Shown piece after piece: positions 12,283-26,706 of a stretch of DNA of 53,776 bases (the first letter of the stretch is position 1; the number at the start of each line of letters is the position of its first letter). Both the position numbers and the translations under genes were made by a program. This stretch comes from Peptostreptococcus anaerobius VPI 4330 = DSM 2949 (lineage in GTDB: Bacteria; Bacillota; Clostridia; Peptostreptococcales; Peptostreptococcaceae): NCBI RefSeq assembly GCF_000381525.1, contig NZ_KB906614.1, forward strand, positions 1 to 53,776. Direction: 5' to 3'. The notes beneath the pieces were generated by a model. The model did not search any database and was not told where the DNA came from. It saw only the letters and a list, made by a program, of their open reading frames with translations.

Positions 12283-12302
12283 TGACTAACTAAATTAGTA
12301 AT

Positions 12303-12412
12303 TTCTTCTCTCATCCAGACTTTACTGTCGGCTTTGGAATCTCACCAAATCATACCACTAGTGGCTCGCGGGCTATACCGCCGGTAGGGAATCTCACCCA
12401 CCCCCGAAGATT
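12303..12412 (-). promoter_or_regulatory. FMN riboswitch (RFN element)
   Basis: On the minus strand the conserved RFN blocks appear in order: ATCTTCGGGGGTGGGTGAG, TCCCTACCGGCGGTATAGCC, CGCGAGCC, GATTTGGTGAGATTCC, AAAGCCGACAGT and AAAGTCTGGATGAGAGAAGA. The closing helix pairs TCTTC with GAAGA. FMN binding should reduce expression of ribU. Confidence 0.97.
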
Positions 12413-12432
12413 TATATTTGTTTTACAACTCT

Positions 12433-18460: not shown

Positions 18461-19577
18461 CTATAAGTTTTGTTTCTTGAGGTATTCAAACATAAAATCG
18501 TCTAAGCTACCGTCCATAACGGCGTCTACATTTGTATTTTCCTTGTTGGTCCTATGGTCCTTGACCAACTTGTAGGGTTGAAATACATATGACCTTATCT
18601 GGCTACCCCAAGATATCTGTGTATATTTGCCTTGTAGGTCCTCTATTTTTTCTTTGTTTTCTTCTTCCTTTATCTGAATCAACTTGGATATTAGCATCTT
18701 CATAGCCACATCCTTGTTAATCCTCTGGCTCCTCTCATTTTGGCACTGAACTACTATTCCTGTTGGCAAGTGGGTAATCCTGACAGCTGAGTCAGTCGTG
18801 TTTACGTGCTGACCTCCAGCCCCTGATGACCTGTAGGTATCTATCTTCAGGTCATTTGGATTTATATTTATATCTGAATCATCTTCTATCTCAGGTAGTA
18901 CGTCAACTGAAGCAAATGATGTGTGCCTCTTGCCCGAAGAATCAAATGGAGATATTCTAACCAGGCGGTGGACTCCCTTTTCAGACTTTAAGTATCCATA
19001 GGCGTTTACACCACTGACCATAAGACTGGCTGTCTTTATGCCTGCCTCTGGGTCCGATATTATATCCAAGAGCTTGACTTTTAGACCTCTGCCCTCAGAC
19101 CACCTAATATACATCCTCAACAACATCTGGGCCCAATCCTGAGCATCAAGCCCTCCTGTGCCTGAATTTATAGACAAGATGGCATTGTTGGAGTCATATT
19201 CTCCACTGAACAATAGCTCCATTGTCGTATTCACTATCTTTTCATTTACATCGCTGATATAGGCCACCAACTGGTCCTCTATCGTCTTGTCCTCCTCTGA
19301 ATCACTAGTCTCTTCTGCCATCTCTATTAATACGGATATATCTTCTAACTGGCCGACCAAAGAATCATAGTCCTCTATCTTAGACGTGAGTTGCTTGTTT
19401 TCCTGTAGTATCCTATTGGCATGGTCGCTATCCTCCCAAAAGCCCTGGTCTTCCATACTGGCATTTATATCTGCTTGTCTAGTCTTTAGGCTATCCAAGT
19501 CAAAGAGAAACACCTAACTCTCTTACTTTTGAAGTCAATTCTTCATATTCTGACTTATAATCCTGTAAATTAATCAT
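18461..19577 (-). CDS. prfB: Peptide chain release factor 2, with programmed +1 frameshift
   Basis: Recognises UAA and UGA stop codons and triggers peptide release. The first 25 codons (from ATG 19577, MINLQDYKSEYEELTSKVRE...) end at CTT TGA; translation must slip +1 at CTT to continue as DLDSLKTRQADINA and the remaining ~345 residues. SPF anticodon-like tripeptide (RISPFDSSGKRHTS) and catalytic GGQ (SSGAGGQHVNTTDSAV) are present. ATG 19577 is chosen because AGGAGG is 7 bases away; ATG 19583 is too close. A GTG-started ORF beginning at 19513 would miss the N-terminal domain. It follows secA, behind a terminator. Confidence 0.95.
19500..19510 (-). promoter_or_regulatory. prfB: RF2 autoregulatory frameshift site
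   Basis: On the minus strand the mRNA reads TCT CTT TGA C. The slippery CTT is 19505-19503 and the in-frame TGA is 19502-19500, the canonical RF2 arrangement. Low RF2 stalls at TGA and favours the +1 slip. The Shine-Dalgarno-like stimulator is weaker (AGGTG) than the E. coli AGGGGG. Confidence 0.95.
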
Positions 19578-19685: not shown

Positions 19686-22370
19686 TTATCTTCCGCAACA
19701 GTTCTTATATTTCTTACCTGAACCGCATGGGCAAGGATCATTTCTTCCAACGCGTGGTTTGTCATTTACCTGTGTTATTGGAGCGTGTTCTTTTCCTTCT
19801 GTATCAGGTGATTCTAAATTATCAACATCTACTACAGCCTTTCTCTCAACAGGAACTTCGACCTGTATATTGAATAGGTAGGCAACAGTATCCTCTCTGA
19901 TAAGCTTGTTCATGTCGTCAAACATCTCGAAACCTTCCATCTTGTAGGCTATTACTGGGTCTATCTGACCTATAGCCCTAAGACCTATACCCTGACGTAA
20001 CTGGTCCATAGCATCTATGTGGTCAATCCAATGGTTGTCAACAGACTGAAGAAGTATGATTCTTTCAACTTCTCTCATCCTCTCAGAACCTATGAACTCT
20101 TCTTTTTCATTGTATATGGCCATCATCTTGTCATATGTAGCCTCTATAGCATCCTGTGGTAGAAGTCCTGAGTAGTCTATATCGTCAATCTGTCCACCTG
20201 GAACAAACTTGTGGTATAGGTGGCCCTTAAAACTCTCTACATCCAATGTTCCCTTTTCATCTGTATAAAGGTTGGCTGCATCTGCAATTACATCCTTCAT
20301 CATATCTTGAATCTGGTCTTGTAGGTTTTCTCCTGATAAAACTCTCTTTCTCTCTGTGTAGATTATTTCTCTTTGCTTGTTCATTACATCATCGTATTCA
20401 AGAACGTGCTTTCTAATACCGAAGTTCTTTCCTTCAACCTTCTTCTGAGCATTTTCTATAGACTTTGTAAGCATCCTATGTTCTATTGGAGTCTCGTCAT
20501 CCATGCCTAGTTTACCTAGTAGTCCCTGGACTTTTTCACTACCAAACAACCTCATAAGATCGTCATCAAGCCCTATATAGAATCTTGATGCACCTGGGTC
20601 ACCCTGACGACCAGCACGACCTCTTAACTGGTTATCTATACGTCTAGACTCATGTCTTTCTGTACCTATGATACAAAGACCACCAGCCTTGATTACTTCT
20701 TCCTGTTCCTTGTCTGTTATCTTCTTGAAGTCTTCATATAGCTTCTTGTAAGTGCTTCTAGCTGCATCGTACTCTTCATTTTCTTCTACACCGGCAATTT
20801 CATTGGCATTGTTAACCCTGTTGATCATCTCGTCAGTGAAGTTTAGCCTCTTCATTTCTCTTAGGGCCATAAATGCTGGAGACCCACCTAGTAGAATGTC
20901 TGTACCTCTACCTGCCATATTTGTAGCTATAGTCACTGCTCCTAGTCTACCTGCCTGGGCTATTATCTCAGCCTCTTTTTCATGGTACTTGGCATTTAGG
21001 ACTTCATGAGCTATACCTCTTTCAGTAAGGATCTCAGAAAGTAATTCTGATTTTTCTATTGATACAGTACCAACTAGAACTGGCTGGTTCTTGGCATGTC
21101 TTTCTTCTATATCCCTAGCCACAGCATGGAACTTGGCCATCTGGTTGGCATATACTGAATCTGCTAGGTCCTCTCTTATTGTAGGCTTGTTTGTAGGAAC
21201 CTGGAATACGTCCATCTTGTAGATTGACTTGAATTCTTCCTCTTCAGTCTTAGCTGTACCAGTCATTCCTGATAGCTTGCTGTACATTCTAAAGTAGTTC
21301 TGGAATGTTATAGTAGCAAGAGTCTTAGACTCCCTCTGGATTGTAAGACCTTCCTTGGCTTCTATAGCCTGATGTAGTCCATCTGAATACCTTCTACCAA
21401 ACATCAGACGTCCTGTAAATTCGTCAACTATGATGATTTCGTCATCCTTAGCAACATAGTCAACGTCCTTTTTCATTATTACATGGGCCTTTAGGGCCTG
21501 ATTTATATGGTGATAAAGTTCAGTATGCTCTAAAGTTGTTATATTTTCAACGTTGAAGTATACTTCAGCCTTCTTTATACCAGACTCTGTAAGCGATACT
21601 GCCTTGTCCTTTTCTTCCTTTTCATAGTCGTCTTCATCCAAAGTCATGATAAATACATTGGCATCTGAGTATAGGTGAGTAGACTTGTCCCCAGGTCCTG
21701 ATATGATAAGAGGAGTTCTAGCTTCATCGACTAGGATTGAATCGACCTCATCGACTATAGCATAGTTAAGTCCTCTTTGAACCATCTGTTCTTCATGGAT
21801 TACCATATTGTCCTTTAGGTAGTCAAATCCGTACTCATTGTTTGTACCATATGTGATATCACATTCATACTGTTTCTTCCTAACCTGTGGGTTCTGGCCA
21901 TGAACTATTACACCTACACTTAAGCCCAAAAATTCATATACTTTGGCCATCTGATCACGGTCACGCTTTGCTAGGTAATCATTGACTGTAACCACGTGAA
22001 CACCCTTTCCTTCAAGAGCATTTAAATACACTGGACAAGTTGCAACAAGCGTCTTACCTTCACCAGTCTTCATCTCTGCTATACGACCCTGATGTAGGAC
22101 CATACCACCTATCAACTGAACCCTGAAGTGTCTCATTCCAAGTATTCTAGTAGAAGCCTCTCTTACAACAGCGAATGCATCTACAAGTATATCATCAAGA
22201 GTTTCTCCATTTGCTAGTCTTTCTTTAAAAATAGTAGTCATGCCCTGAAGTTCTTCGTCTGTCATAGCCTTATACTTGTCTCCAACAGCGTCTATCTTAT
22301 CGACTATCTTGTTAAATTCTTTTAAATCTTTTCTATCGGCCATGTTAAATAGCCCGTCTAAAAAGCCCAT
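19686..22370 (-). CDS. secA: Preprotein translocase ATPase SecA
   Basis: Motor ATPase of the Sec secretion system. 894 residues, in the typical range. Walker [20 protein letters not shown] near residue 102, [20 protein letters not shown], the GTDILLGG region and [20 protein letters not shown] are present. The C terminus carries the zinc-binding [13 protein letters not shown] motif that contacts SecB or ribosomes in other bacteria; the same motif begins the SEC-C gene at 52170. AGGAG lies 8 bases before the ATG. raiA/hpf usually lies just upstream in Firmicutes but is absent; a noncoding RNA is there instead. Confidence 0.98.
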
Positions 22371-22572: not shown

Positions 22573-22604
22573 AAATAAAAAAGCCCCCAAAAAAATTTGG
22601 AGAC
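22573..22604 (-). terminator. Terminator of the noncoding RNA at 22575-22815
   Basis: On the minus strand GTCTCCAAA pairs with TTTGGGGGC (9 bp, two G-T), 4-base loop, followed by TTTTTTATTT. Confidence 0.85.
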
Positions 22605-22815
22605 CTTATTTTTATTTGGCTGACCTGATCTTTGACCCCACACTCGCCTGCTGGAACTTTCGCTTCGGGGTTACCTCACTACTAGCCCTCTCGATTTTGT
22701 ATCGGCAGGTCTTACTTCTAAGCCGCGCCATGCTCACTCTTCCATTTTTAGAAGTAGCTTACGTGGATCCCTTTGCCCGCGACTGGCTTGGACTTGCAAC
22801 CACAGACCCAAATAC
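22575..22815 (-). ncRNA. Structured noncoding RNA upstream of secA (candidate raiA-motif RNA)
   Basis: About 240 bases, clearly GC-richer than neighbouring intergenic DNA, with a near-perfect promoter (22822-22850) and a strong terminator, and without a convincing reading frame. Self-complementary blocks are visible: TACTTCTAA (22713-22721) with TTAGAAGTA (22748-22756), TGACCCC with GGGGTTA, a CGAT/ATCG hairpin, and GACCTG with CAGGTC. In clostridia the intergenic region upstream of raiA/hpf-secA-prfB carries the raiA-motif RNA, an abundant structured RNA of unknown function. Position, size and structure richness fit that family, but I could not run a covariance model. 6S RNA is an alternative. 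The region is certainly RNA-like; the family name is inference. Confidence 0.7.
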
Positions 22816-22821
22816 TTTTAT

Positions 22822-22850
22822 ATCATATATTTATTTTCAGCAAATGTCAA
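22822..22850 (-). promoter_or_regulatory. Sigma-A promoter of the noncoding RNA
   Basis: On the minus strand TTGACA (22850-22845), 17-base spacer, TATGAT (22827-22822). Start predicted near 22815. It begins 15 bases after the stop of the CWB2 gene. Confidence 0.85.
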
Positions 22851-22864
22851 TATATTTTGCAAAC

Positions 22865-24709
22865 TTACTGGTTGTACCTAAGTGCATTTGGAAGGAACCT
22901 ACAACCCCAAGCACCTATAACGCCTGTTGTCTCTATTGCTAGACCATTTGGACCAGCTGAGTGGATTATCATCGGTCTACCACCGTTCCTACCTAGATAG
23001 ATCATGGCGTGGTTGTATATATTTGAACCGCTGCTGCAATACAACAAGTCTCCACCGAACAGATTGTTCCAATTGCGTGGAACGTACTTAAATCCATACT
23101 GGTTGGCCATCTGGTATTGAAGCCTTACCATTATATATCCTCTCTCTGAGTTCAAATTCCTTATGATTTCAGGTCCTGGAATCAATACGCCAAACTCCTT
23201 ATAGGCTGCATAAGGTAGCCCACAGCAGTATACACCCTGACCATTTTTTAGGTTTGTTCCTATCCACCTATATGGCAGGTAGTCATACTTAGCAGCAAAG
23301 TTGGCAACCTTCTGAGACTTAAATCTCTGGGCTGAATCAGACCTATTTATCCATTCATTATCTATCTTTATTTCGTTGTTTGTAGGCGCCGACCATCTCA
23401 CATACTTGGCAGGTCTACCAGTCCTCTTAGCCCCTGTTCTTACAGCTCCATTATCAGCAAACCAGTAACAATGTGGTCCTGTTGTAAATACTCCGTTCCT
23501 ATACATTTCATATGATTCAGGAGAGAAATATCTATTGGCACCGTCTATGTAATTCCATCCCCTAACCAATCCATTTGGCATTGTTGAATAGTATTTTTTA
23601 CCAAACATAGAAATCCAACCATTTCTTATAGAACCATCACCTGCTAGGACATACTTTTTATTTCCTATCTTAACCATACCCTCAGTTTTTGAATTGTACT
23701 TTAGGTACTCACTAGTGGAATTGTTCTTAATGAAATTCTTTCCGCCTTCATTAACTATTGTATACTTTCCTAGAGATGCTATATCTCTGGCCGGATCCTC
23801 TGGTTCTACACCTTCAAGAGCAAGCTTTACTCTTTCATCTGATACAGCACCTTGACCACCTACTACAAATATTTCATCTGCATAAGAAGCCATATCCATT
23901 ATTCTAGGATCCTTATGACGAGGGGCTAACACAACATCCGCTTCCCTAGCATTTGCAATGTTGACAGAGCTCAGTGCATCAGCAAAATTATCCCCACTTA
24001 CCAAGACCATATTAGCAGCATCAGTCATTTGGGCAATTTTAGCAGAAGTATCATATCTATCTTTACCAGATATTCTTATACCCTCATTTATTGACACACT
24101 GTTTTCGCCACCGAATACATAATCAACACTAGCCTCTATATCACTTGAAATTTTGGTATCATCAGCTTCAACCAAGGCTAGACCTATCTCTTTTTCTTTT
24201 ATAAATCTTGAAGCACTTAGGGCATCTGGATACATCCTACCATTGGCAACGCCTACATGATCATAACCAGCTTCTTTAAGGGTACTGATATTTGTCAAAT
24301 ACCTATTGCTTCCATAAAGCCTCTTAACTTCAACACCAGTCGGTTCAAGTCTCGATACAAAACTCTCTGGTATGGAGTTTTGACCACCTATTATGTAGAC
24401 TTTTTTAAAGCCTCCATTAGATACATAGGATGACATATCTTCACTACCTCTAACTAAGACCAACTTGGCATCAAACCTGTTACAGATATTAACTGAACTT
24501 AGGGCATCTGCAAATTCATTACCACTGGCGAATACAAGTATTTCAGATTCCATATAATCTGCTGACTCCATAGATGTCCTGTATCTTTCTGGACCTGATA
24601 CCCTTCTCGGTTGGTATTCTGCATAAGAAGGGCCAACTGTAGAAAGACCCATTAAAATGGACAAACCTATAGCTGACAATAGACTTACTTTTGTTTTTTT
24701 CTTAATCAT
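22865..24709 (-). CDS. Secreted cell-wall protein: CWB2 repeats, glucan-binding-like repeats and NlpC/P60-like peptidase
   Basis: 614 residues. A signal peptide (MIKKKTKVSLLSAIGLSILMG, cut after SYA) precedes three cell-wall-binding type 2 modules (about 33-330), which in Clostridioides difficile anchor S-layer and Cwp proteins to the PSII polymer. Then come WY/G-rich choline- or glucan-binding-like repeats (about 345-440) and a C-terminal NlpC/P60 fold. Its expected catalytic DCSGF motif reads YCCGL (near 492); candidate histidines are in NHAMIYLG and IIHSAG. It probably cleaves or binds peptidoglycan peptides at the surface. Promoter at 24798-24826; AGGAGG before the ATG. Single-gene unit. 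Confidence 0.85.
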   Translation of the reverse strand: MIKKKTKVSLLSAIGLSILMGLSTVGPSYAEYQPRRVSGPERYRTSMESADYMESEILVFASGNEFADALSSVNICNRFDAKLVLVRGSEDMSSYVSNGGFKKVYIIGGQNSIPESFVSRLEPTGVEVKRLYGSNRYLTNISTLKEAGYDHVGVANGRMYPDALSASRFIKEKEIGLALVEADDTKISSDIEASVDYVFGGENSVSINEGIRISGKDRYDTSAKIAQMTDAANMVLVSGDNFADALSSVNIANAREADVVLAPRHKDPRIMDMASYADEIFVVGGQGAVSDERVKLALEGVEPEDPARDIASLGKYTIVNEGGKNFIKNNSTSEYLKYNSKTEGMVKIGNKKYVLAGDGSIRNGWISMFGKKYYSTMPNGLVRGWNYIDGANRYFSPESYEMYRNGVFTTGPHCYWFADNGAVRTGAKRTGRPAKYVRWSAPTNNEIKIDNEWINRSDSAQRFKSQKVANFAAKYDYLPYRWIGTNLKNGQGVYCCGLPYAAYKEFGVLIPGPEIIRNLNSERGYIMVRLQYQMANQYGFKYVPRNWNNLFGGDLLYCSSGSNIYNHAMIYLGRNGGRPMIIHSAGPNGLAIETTGVIGAWGCRFLPNALRYNQ

Positions 24710-25012: not shown

Positions 25013-25645
25013 TCAGAGTATAAATGCCATACATATAAAGGGACCTAGACCAACTCTTTCTTCAAGCTCACCGTATATAAAATAATTAATCACCAAATAG
25101 CTAGCTGCTAGCATATAGGAAAGGAAAAATACCACTGTAGTCGCATAATAACCCATATGCAGAGTAATAATAAAATATAGGTAGGGATCAGCTCCACCCA
25201 TAGCCCCTTTTATTTTGCTTAAACTAAGGGTCAGTGCGAATATTATAAGACTTGAGATAAGATTTTCAGGGCAAGATCCCAAAACAAGATTAATCCATTC
25301 TCTACCATAGTATAAAACATAGTCTGTACCATACTTTATAAAATACTCAATAAGGTTTACTGTCCCAAAAGATATCCCCACTACAAGCTGGACTATCAAC
25401 AAAAAACATAAGTCTATATCATATATGTACCTCCACCTAGAGTCCACCCATGATATTAAAAAAATTGGACCCAATAAATAAGCCTTGTAGGAGTTGCTCG
25501 GATTTTGCAAGTAGATATAGGTAAGTACTAGTATTTGCATAAAAAAAATCCCTATAAGTATCTTAAAATCAAAATCTATACCTTGGTCCTCATATACCTG
25601 CCCAAGCCTAAATATAGTGTATATACTAGAAAATATCGCTACCAT
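25013..25645 (-). CDS. Type IV prepilin peptidase-like membrane protease (A24 family), divergent
   Basis: 210 residues with six to seven hydrophobic segments. Two aspartates in the expected places identify the family: SWVDSRWRYIYD (canonical WIDLRTKIIPD) and GAMGGADPYLYF (canonical GMGGGDVKL). The N-terminal cysteine-rich methyltransferase domain of full-length PilD is missing, so only cleavage is expected. It starts within the last codons of the PilT-like gene (7-base overlap). Pilin, PilB and PilC genes are not nearby. Which prepilins it cleaves is unknown. Confidence 0.75.
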   Translation of the reverse strand: MVAIFSSIYTIFRLGQVYEDQGIDFDFKILIGIFFMQILVLTYIYLQNPSNSYKAYLLGPIFLISWVDSRWRYIYDIDLCFLLIVQLVVGISFGTVNLIEYFIKYGTDYVLYYGREWINLVLGSCPENLISSLIIFALTLSLSKIKGAMGGADPYLYFIITLHMGYYATTVVFFLSYMLAASYLVINYFIYGELEERVGLGPFICMAFIL

Positions 25646-26706
25646 ATCCCTATACTTCCTCCCCCAACCTTTCTCCTGCAGTAATTAATATCCAAGCAGT
25701 TATTGATAAGATCACTTGAAGATATCTCACCATTTTTATAGAGACCTATCAAATCATCATCCATCATATTCATTTCTTTTGACTTACCTGTAGACATATA
25801 GTTGGGTATCTGGTTGGTCTTGCCCTCCCTGATCATATTGGCAACAGACTTGTCTACAAACAATATATCAAAACAAGGCTTTCTCCCCTTGATTGTCTGT
25901 ACTAGGTTTTGGGATATTACAGCCTTCAAGACTAGGGCTAGGTTGCTTGCCACCTTGTCTCTTTCAGAAATACTAAACATATCCATTATCCTATCTATGC
26001 TCTGTGATGCGCCCATAGTATGTATTGTAGCTATGCACAAATGTCCCGTCTCAGACGCTCTAAGGGCTATCTTGAGGGTTTCTTCATCCCTTATTTCCCC
26101 TATTACAATCACATCAGGGTCCTGTCTAAGAGAGTTAACCAAGCCCCTATTAAATGACTGGGTATCTATCCCAACCTCTCTTTGACTTATTAGGGATTTT
26201 TTAGATTCAAACTCATACTCTATTGGGTCTTCTATGGTTATGATATGCTTTTGGTAGTTGATATTTATCTCCTCAACTATAGCTGCCATGCTGGTTGACT
26301 TTCCAGAACCTGTTGGTCCTGATATTATAACTAGTCCGGATTTCATTGCAGCAACTTTCTTAAAACAATTAGGTAATTCCATATCCTTTATAGTCTTTAC
26401 ATCCGCTACAATCTTTCTCATTACCAGACCTAACTTTCCCCTTGTAACAAACATATTGCACCTGTACCTCATAGGTGCAAGTTCCAAGGAAAAATCCACC
26501 TCATTTTCAGTTAGATTCTGTATGTATAACTCAAACCTCTGCCAACCTATCAGGTCCCTAAAGTCATCCCTATTTAATTTATAGTCATACCGCTTCAATC
26601 TACCCACTTCCCTGTAGTAAATGTCCGTCCCCTCTCTCAGGTGAAAGTCTGAAATATCCCTTTCTTGTAAGGCTTCCATGATTTTAATGACACACTTATC
26701 TTCCAT
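25639..26706 (-). CDS. pilT: PilT-like type IV pilus retraction ATPase
   Basis: 355 residues. PilT features: Walker A GPTGSGKST near residue 130, the Asp box ITIEDPIEYE, Walker B QDPDVIVIGEIRDEET, the His box ATIHTMGASQSIDRI, and an N-terminal ISDFHLREGTDIYYR segment equal to the SDLHL motif of PilT. It hydrolyses ATP to retract or drive a pilus and so needs PilB, PilC and pilins encoded elsewhere. A GGGGTGG sequence precedes the ATG. It is translationally coupled to the prepilin peptidase-like gene. Confidence 0.88.
   Translation of the reverse strand: MEDKCVIKIMEALQERDISDFHLREGTDIYYREVGRLKRYDYKLNRDDFRDLIGWQRFELYIQNLTENEVDFSLELAPMRYRCNMFVTRGKLGLVMRKIVADVKTIKDMELPNCFKKVAAMKSGLVIISGPTGSGKSTSMAAIVEEININYQKHIITIEDPIEYEFESKKSLISQREVGIDTQSFNRGLVNSLRQDPDVIVIGEIRDEETLKIALRASETGHLCIATIHTMGASQSIDRIMDMFSISERDKVASNLALVLKAVISQNLVQTIKGRKPCFDILFVDKSVANMIREGKTNQIPNYMSTGKSKEMNMMDDDLIGLYKNGEISSSDLINNCLDINYCRRKVGGGSIGIW

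Follow-up and report, generated by a model that had tools for sequence, protein, structure and literature searches.

The stretch upstream of secA in Peptostreptococcus anaerobius VPI 4330 is, with a probability that we put at about 0.9, an independent gene for a raiA-motif (ModT) noncoding RNA that is kept under selection. The window (the whole stretch of 53,776 bp analyzed here) was compared with 4227 Rfam families by cmscan, and the raiA family RF03072 was found at 22816–22611 on the minus strand with 178.9 bits and E 1.5e-45. The gathering cut-off of this family is 101.3 bits, and the match spans positions 1–209 of the 209 model positions. At gathering thresholds the whole window gave three matches, namely raiA, a piece of a group II intron and an FMN riboswitch. 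RF03072 stands alone at the place of the RNA, and the identities of 6S or SRP RNA, for which no match was found there among the 4227 families, were ruled out. It is also the single RF03072 match in the window genome (2.1 Mb, 68 contigs).

The first-pass annotation, made from the letters alone, had described a structured RNA at 22575–22815 and had proposed raiA-motif membership from position and size. The elements that it described are present and its coordinates are right; the strand, on which it was silent, is minus. The proposed membership is borne out by the bit score, obtained in the Rfam covariance scan that the annotation itself had suggested, and by the covariation on 31 RNAs described below. 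The GC-richness that it had noticed is real: the GC content is 50.5% at 22611–22816, against 36.2% in the window and 17.6% in the adjoining gap to secA, and not one of 1072 windows (206 nt, step 50) is as GC-rich as the RNA. The raiA-motif family and its trans action are already in print, and the RNA of the window adds one more member. The features of the locus, in the order of transcription, are as follows.

22865–24709, minus strand: gene of a CWB2-NlpC/P60 protein, upstream of the RNA (Pfam, neighbor clusters)
22822–22850, minus strand: putative SigA-type promoter TTGACA-17-TATGAT (from sequence; 17-nt spacer in 9/9 genus genomes)
22611–22816, minus strand: raiA-motif (ModT) noncoding RNA, full RF03072 model (cmscan and covariation)
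22580–22607, minus strand: intrinsic terminator, 12-pair stem with a T-rich tail beyond it (terminator scan, genus comparison)
19686–22370, minus strand: secA, directly downstream of the RNA (Pfam; neither hpf/raiA nor a remnant of it visible in the gap)
18461–19513, minus strand: prfB, downstream of secA (Pfam PCRF and RF-1)

SecA of the window and SecA of Peptostreptococcus russellii share 85% identity.

Matches to RF03072 were revealed in 32 of 41 genomes (the window genome and 40 relatives), including all nine of the genus, and in 65 of the 71 genomes of a family set, 64 of them above the cut-off. Under strict filters, six of the 71 gave no match (one of the six is 88% complete), so the RNA may be dispensable in some family members. 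A rescan of one secA locus in each of the nine relatives that had given no RF03072 hit again found no raiA match; several of these stretches were without hpf. Two loci, L212 (G039) and L213 (G028), belong to genomes of the same order and carry FliS, hpf and secA in the usual order, with no RF03072 match on the stretch; here the RNA was lost or was never there, while hpf stayed. A plasmid search gave no match.

In total 32 RNAs were compared: that of the window, eight from other members of the genus and 23 others. The RNA of G033 lies at a contig end and was left out, so that the alignment used (A2) has 31 rows, and 58 pairs (the Rfam pairs plus two added P3 pairs) were tested on it. Standard pairs occupied 84.9% of the cells, compared with 77.8% in shuffles and 28.8–48.0% with slid partners, the last control being biased towards success because the structure was taken from the window's own model match. 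Changes on both sides of a pair occurred in 26 of the 58 pairs versus 18.3 in shuffles, in line with the covarying stems that the first-pass annotation had advised looking for in relatives. The number of further standard pair types did not exceed that in shuffles (61 vs 57.5; 77 of 500 shuffles were as high).

Pseudoknot 1, which joins the P3 loop with the P5–P6 loop and was placed at model positions 33–39 following PMC11751092, comprises seven pairs, all of them standard in 31 sequences (100%) and three of them compensated; it is thus fully paired in all A2 RNAs, as in the raiA RNA of Clostridium acetobutylicum. The structure of raiA RNA is the subject of PMC12286853 and of the cryo-EM work PMC11751092. 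The weakest helices on A2 were P4/P5 (helix 6; 50.1%), the P8 tip (54.1%) and inner P1 (75.3%). The low P5 score under covariance-model pairing comes partly from MAFFT, which does not align this variable hairpin by structure; folded one sequence at a time, P5 forms a short stem in most rows. In several members of the genus this hairpin is weak or differently paired, unlike that of C. acetobutylicum, and in four of nine (G000, G001, G003, G005) it leaves a base on the 5' side unpaired. A bulged base in P5 was considered as a genus trait and dropped, since it was seen in only 4/9 and unpaired bases occur outside the genus too. A further difference from the C. acetobutylicum RNA is the loss of the P8 tip in two species of the genus: the RNAs of G002 (L113) and G007 (L118) lack about 9–10 bases there and keep the flanking core, which makes them useful for structure-function work.

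The minimum free energy of the RNA was no better than that of shuffled sequences (z 0.02; 103 of 200 shuffles had an equal or better energy); fold energy is therefore useless as evidence here and alone would not have revealed the RNA. The long-range complementary blocks mentioned in the first-pass annotation can be seen, for example the 9-nt complement UUAGAAGUA, but this one shrinks to 8 nt in one sister and to 4–6 nt in the other 27 loci listed and is thus not a helix conserved among relatives.

The gene order of the locus differs from that in other genera. Outside the genus, 23 genomes bear the RNA. G033, with the RNA at one contig end and hpf at the end of a different contig, does not allow a judgment; each of the other 22 has hpf on the strand of the RNA, downstream of it and within 10.5 kb. 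This count covers the first set of 41 genomes, as distinct from the further genomes of the 71-genome family set. The distance is within 2.3 kb in 17 of them and 3.9, 7.4, 8.1, 9.2 and 10.5 kb in the other five (G016, G024, G026, G029, G032), where the same-strand order is kept in 5/5. Such full linkage could reflect the RNA and hpf working together in other genera. In Peptostreptococcus the linkage was found in none of nine genomes: secA comes next, without hpf. The first-pass annotation was right in noticing that no raiA gene stands between the RNA and secA, and this holds in all nine genus genomes compared. A hidden hpf remnant was also sought in the gap of the nine genomes by tblastn with two Hpf queries; nothing better than E 0.65 was obtained, and no remnant was seen.

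The gene itself is present elsewhere. Each of the nine genus genomes contains a single Hpf away from the RNA, and the window genome, which is therefore not raiA/Hpf-less, has its one copy next to phoH on a different contig. G005, assembled as a single contig, has 535 kb between hpf and the RNA. The gene is located just before phoH in 8/9 genomes (in G003 the contig ends first); no raiA RNA was matched beside the phoH-side hpf on the one such locus scanned, L002.

Two histories can account for this arrangement. Either the RNA-linked paralog was lost, or hpf left its place behind the RNA for the phoH locus and no older second copy was kept. The single Hpf of each genus genome agrees with a move. 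In the tree of 50 Hpf rows, the genus forms one clade (100/100) inside a group of non-linked second copies with 14 rows (92/97), and 11 family copies, nine adjoining the RNA and two at 8.1 and 10.5 kb from it, form a separate group (99/94); neither group takes in the RNA-linked copies of G013 and G022, two further members of the family. Grouping the genus with RNA-linked copies was not rejected at the 5% level by the AU test on all 50 rows (p 0.0617). When four long rows were removed, a choice made once the first tree was known, the grouping of the genus with the three second copies that remained had a support of 100/96, and the AU p value was 0.027. Besides, G024 and G017 have members of the second-copy group about 1.9 kb upstream of phoH, a gene that the hpf of the genus directly precedes. 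We consider a move unlikely; the Hpf trees point to loss of the RNA-linked paralog as the probable course of events. A raiA-motif RNA not followed by raiA is known from C. difficile (PMC11706538; PMC11477304). We found no report of a genus-wide break of the linkage in listings and abstracts of the open-licence PMC literature, including the excerpts of PMC11706538 used here, in which Peptostreptococcus is not named; it may already be in print. The loss of linkage in one genus is no proof that the RNA is independent of hpf elsewhere.

The upstream neighbor differs as well. ComF is located directly upstream of the RNA in 21 of 32 loci, including 8/9 of the genus, and the exception is the window species, with its CWB2-NlpC gene where all eight sisters have a RecD2–ComF pair. 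Contig C18 carries the RecD2 and ComF genes of this species, and a second gene for a CWB2-like protein comes after ComF there. With CWB2 upstream and hpf absent, the RNA of the window is without both of its usual neighbors. Adjacency to comFC upstream and raiA downstream is thus missing here and is not a defining feature of the family; a survey quoted in PMC11706538 gives 74% for comFC upstream and 66% for raiA downstream. In the relative G024, ComF is directly upstream of the RNA, the promoter spacer is also 17 nt, and hpf, 8.1 kb downstream, is followed by secA and prfB on one strand; in the window, by contrast, this hpf is absent and ComF lies on another contig.

The CWB2-like gene that follows ComF on C18 of the window genome (L218, 5589–8111, minus strand) is large and occupies the place where the sisters carry the RNA; the break between ComF and the RNA has a CWB2 gene on either side, on contigs C10 and C18. 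A rearrangement by homologous CWB2 genes was considered and found no support: the compared regions share no blastn match, and the proteins are 29% identical over 272 residues. Upstream of the CWB2-NlpC gene, at 25013–26706 of the minus strand, there is a type II/IV secretion ATPase beside a weak prepilin-peptidase match that is below the Pfam cut-off.

By its sequence the RNA has a promoter of its own and forms a predicted independent transcription unit. The TTGACA-17-TATGAT promoter reported in the first-pass annotation was confirmed just outside the coordinates it had given, with TTGACA at 22850 and TATGAT ending at 22822; it agrees with the consensus in 11 of 12 letters. The number of promoter-like sites in the region is close to that expected by chance (three found vs 2.1 expected), but this one recurs: all nine genus genomes have a promoter with a 17-nt spacer and 10–11 of 12 letters before the RNA, and the 23 other RNAs score 9–11 of 12. 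The strong terminator also mentioned there corresponds to the 12-pair stem at 22607–22580 and its T tail. One terminator-like site was found in the region vs 0.2 expected, and the hairpin-plus-T scan revealed a terminator behind the RNA in 8/9 genus genomes, with none in G008. Transcription is predicted to start near 22815 and the transcript to be about 235–245 nt long, close to the long ModT isoform of three clostridial species (about 240–260 nt; PMC11706538). The suggestion of a stand-alone gene fits this promoter and terminator, with no gene before the latter. The window locus resembles that of C. difficile ModT (PMC11706538) in its RNA family, its SigA-type promoter, a next gene other than raiA and an intrinsic terminator close behind the motif.

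These data bear on a cis-acting role, in which the RNA would be a riboswitch or leader controlling the gene behind it, here secA. Rfam types RF03072 as 'Cis-reg; riboswitch', and the RNA does lie upstream of secA on the same strand. However, the predicted transcript stops at the terminator, behind the complete motif and about 210 nt short of secA, and the first downstream frame varies among 31 loci: SecA in five, Hpf in 14, the S component of an ECF transporter in opposite orientation in four and other frames in eight, at least two of which are short spurious frames before Hpf. In C. difficile, moreover, the RNA is complemented in trans (PMC11706538). With this terminator and a varying gene downstream, we saw no expression platform acting on the adjacent gene; the riboswitch identity is rejected by the covariance scan and the terminator, and a cis-acting leader is very improbable.

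Still less probable is that the RNA is a relic drifting without function in Peptostreptococcus since its linked hpf was lost. It is true that the window species lacks both the ComF and the Hpf neighbor and that G002 and G007 have lost the P8 tip. Against this, mean identity within the genus is 88.6% for the RNA, compared with 79.0% for secA DNA and 58.9% for the 60 nt upstream; the 200 nt downstream of the RNA show 48.1% (shuffled 41.1%). Of 100 columns invariant in 22 RNAs from outside the genus, the window keeps 99 and the genus members 94–100, and the promoter is retained in 9/9 genus genomes. The probability that the stretch encodes a protein, by a plus-strand frame that begins with TTG at 22616 and runs through, is practically nil: this one antisense frame is free of stops in 6/9 genus genomes, but it has 1, 1 and 2 stops in the other three, the RNA lengths of 203–209 differ by non-multiples of three and the changes follow base pairs, so we rejected the coding reading.

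Effects of raiA RNA on c-di-GMP and sporulation have been seen in C. acetobutylicum. Soares et al. (2024) reportedly constructed the knock-out of the raiA RNA in this species and are also said to have made the main synteny survey of the RNA; loss of the RNA in C. acetobutylicum goes with defects in sporulation and aggregation. In C. difficile, ModT is an abundant, stable, SigA-transcribed and trans-acting RNA, and mutants without it enter the stationary phase late and have more c-di-GMP, an increase linked to their sporulation defect (PMC11706538). Profile searches for GGDEF, EAL and Spo0A gave no match in the nine Peptostreptococcus genomes, which are mostly drafts and are 99–100% complete. 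Among 14 named genomes, the same searches gave control matches for GGDEF in eight, Spo0A in one and EAL in six; the relative G024, unlike Peptostreptococcus, has 47 GGDEF matches and Spo0A.

In the family set of 71 genomes, the RNA was present in 19 of 20 genomes without GGDEF and in 46 of 51 with it, and no association was detected (Fisher p 0.67, a guide only, since the genomes are related). The 19 GGDEF-less genomes bearing the RNA belong to four genera (g1, g9, g10, g14); two of them, G052 and G058, are 84–85% complete, and G086 is 7% contaminated. Spo0A is missing in 12/71 genomes, including all nine of g1. The occurrence of raiA RNA in non-spore-formers is already in print (PMC11706538; PMC11477304). 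For the comparison of the RNA with c-di-GMP enzymes we found no report in listings and abstracts of the open-licence PMC literature, though one may already be in print. As judged from these genome sequences, the persistence of the RNA follows neither c-di-GMP nor Spo0A nor a linked hpf.

A conserved core role that needs c-di-GMP, sporulation or a neighboring hpf is therefore unlikely. As the genus has no detected GGDEF, EAL or Spo0A, the core activity would most likely lie upstream of, or apart from, the effects on c-di-GMP and sporulation. We think it rather probable that the Peptostreptococcus RNA works without c-di-GMP synthesis, Spo0A and linked Hpf, that its universal job is more basic, for example that of a ribonucleoprotein whose target is tRNA, rRNA or translation, and that the c-di-GMP and sporulation effects are downstream consequences. 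The published phenotypes concern c-di-GMP and sporulation, which the genus seems to lack, so that function by homology is not guaranteed; Peptostreptococcus may also have repurposed the RNA.

The following role can be proposed. In the window species the RNA is probably expressed: a housekeeping (SigA-type) promoter of its own would drive minus-strand transcription, which would end at the intrinsic terminator before secA. The product would adopt the compact raiA fold, including pseudoknot 1. As judged by homology, it would be an abundant, stable, structured RNA that accumulates in exponential growth, takes part in the switch to the stationary phase and, by analogy with C. difficile, may act in trans; it would not serve as a riboswitch for a neighboring gene, and a raiA/hpf neighbor would not be needed. 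We would guess that it has a housekeeping role as a ribonucleoprotein and acts on translation or on stable-RNA metabolism, in line with the raised tRNA and 5S levels in the C. difficile mutant (PMC11706538).

The raiA/ModT RNA occurs in more than 2,500 species (PMC11706538) and has cryo-EM structures, and published work accounts for part of its effect by c-di-GMP and sporulation. In Peptostreptococcus the RNA is strongly constrained, with no c-di-GMP enzymes or Spo0A detected and no linked hpf; this narrows the search for its molecular activity to functions that such lineages still share, and a genome of about 2.1 Mb is available in which to test them.

The two other Rfam matches of the window are also on the minus strand. 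The FMN riboswitch RF00050 is located at 12299–12415 (111.7 bits), and the group II intron domain match RF02001 at 49–219 (120 bits), near the contig end.
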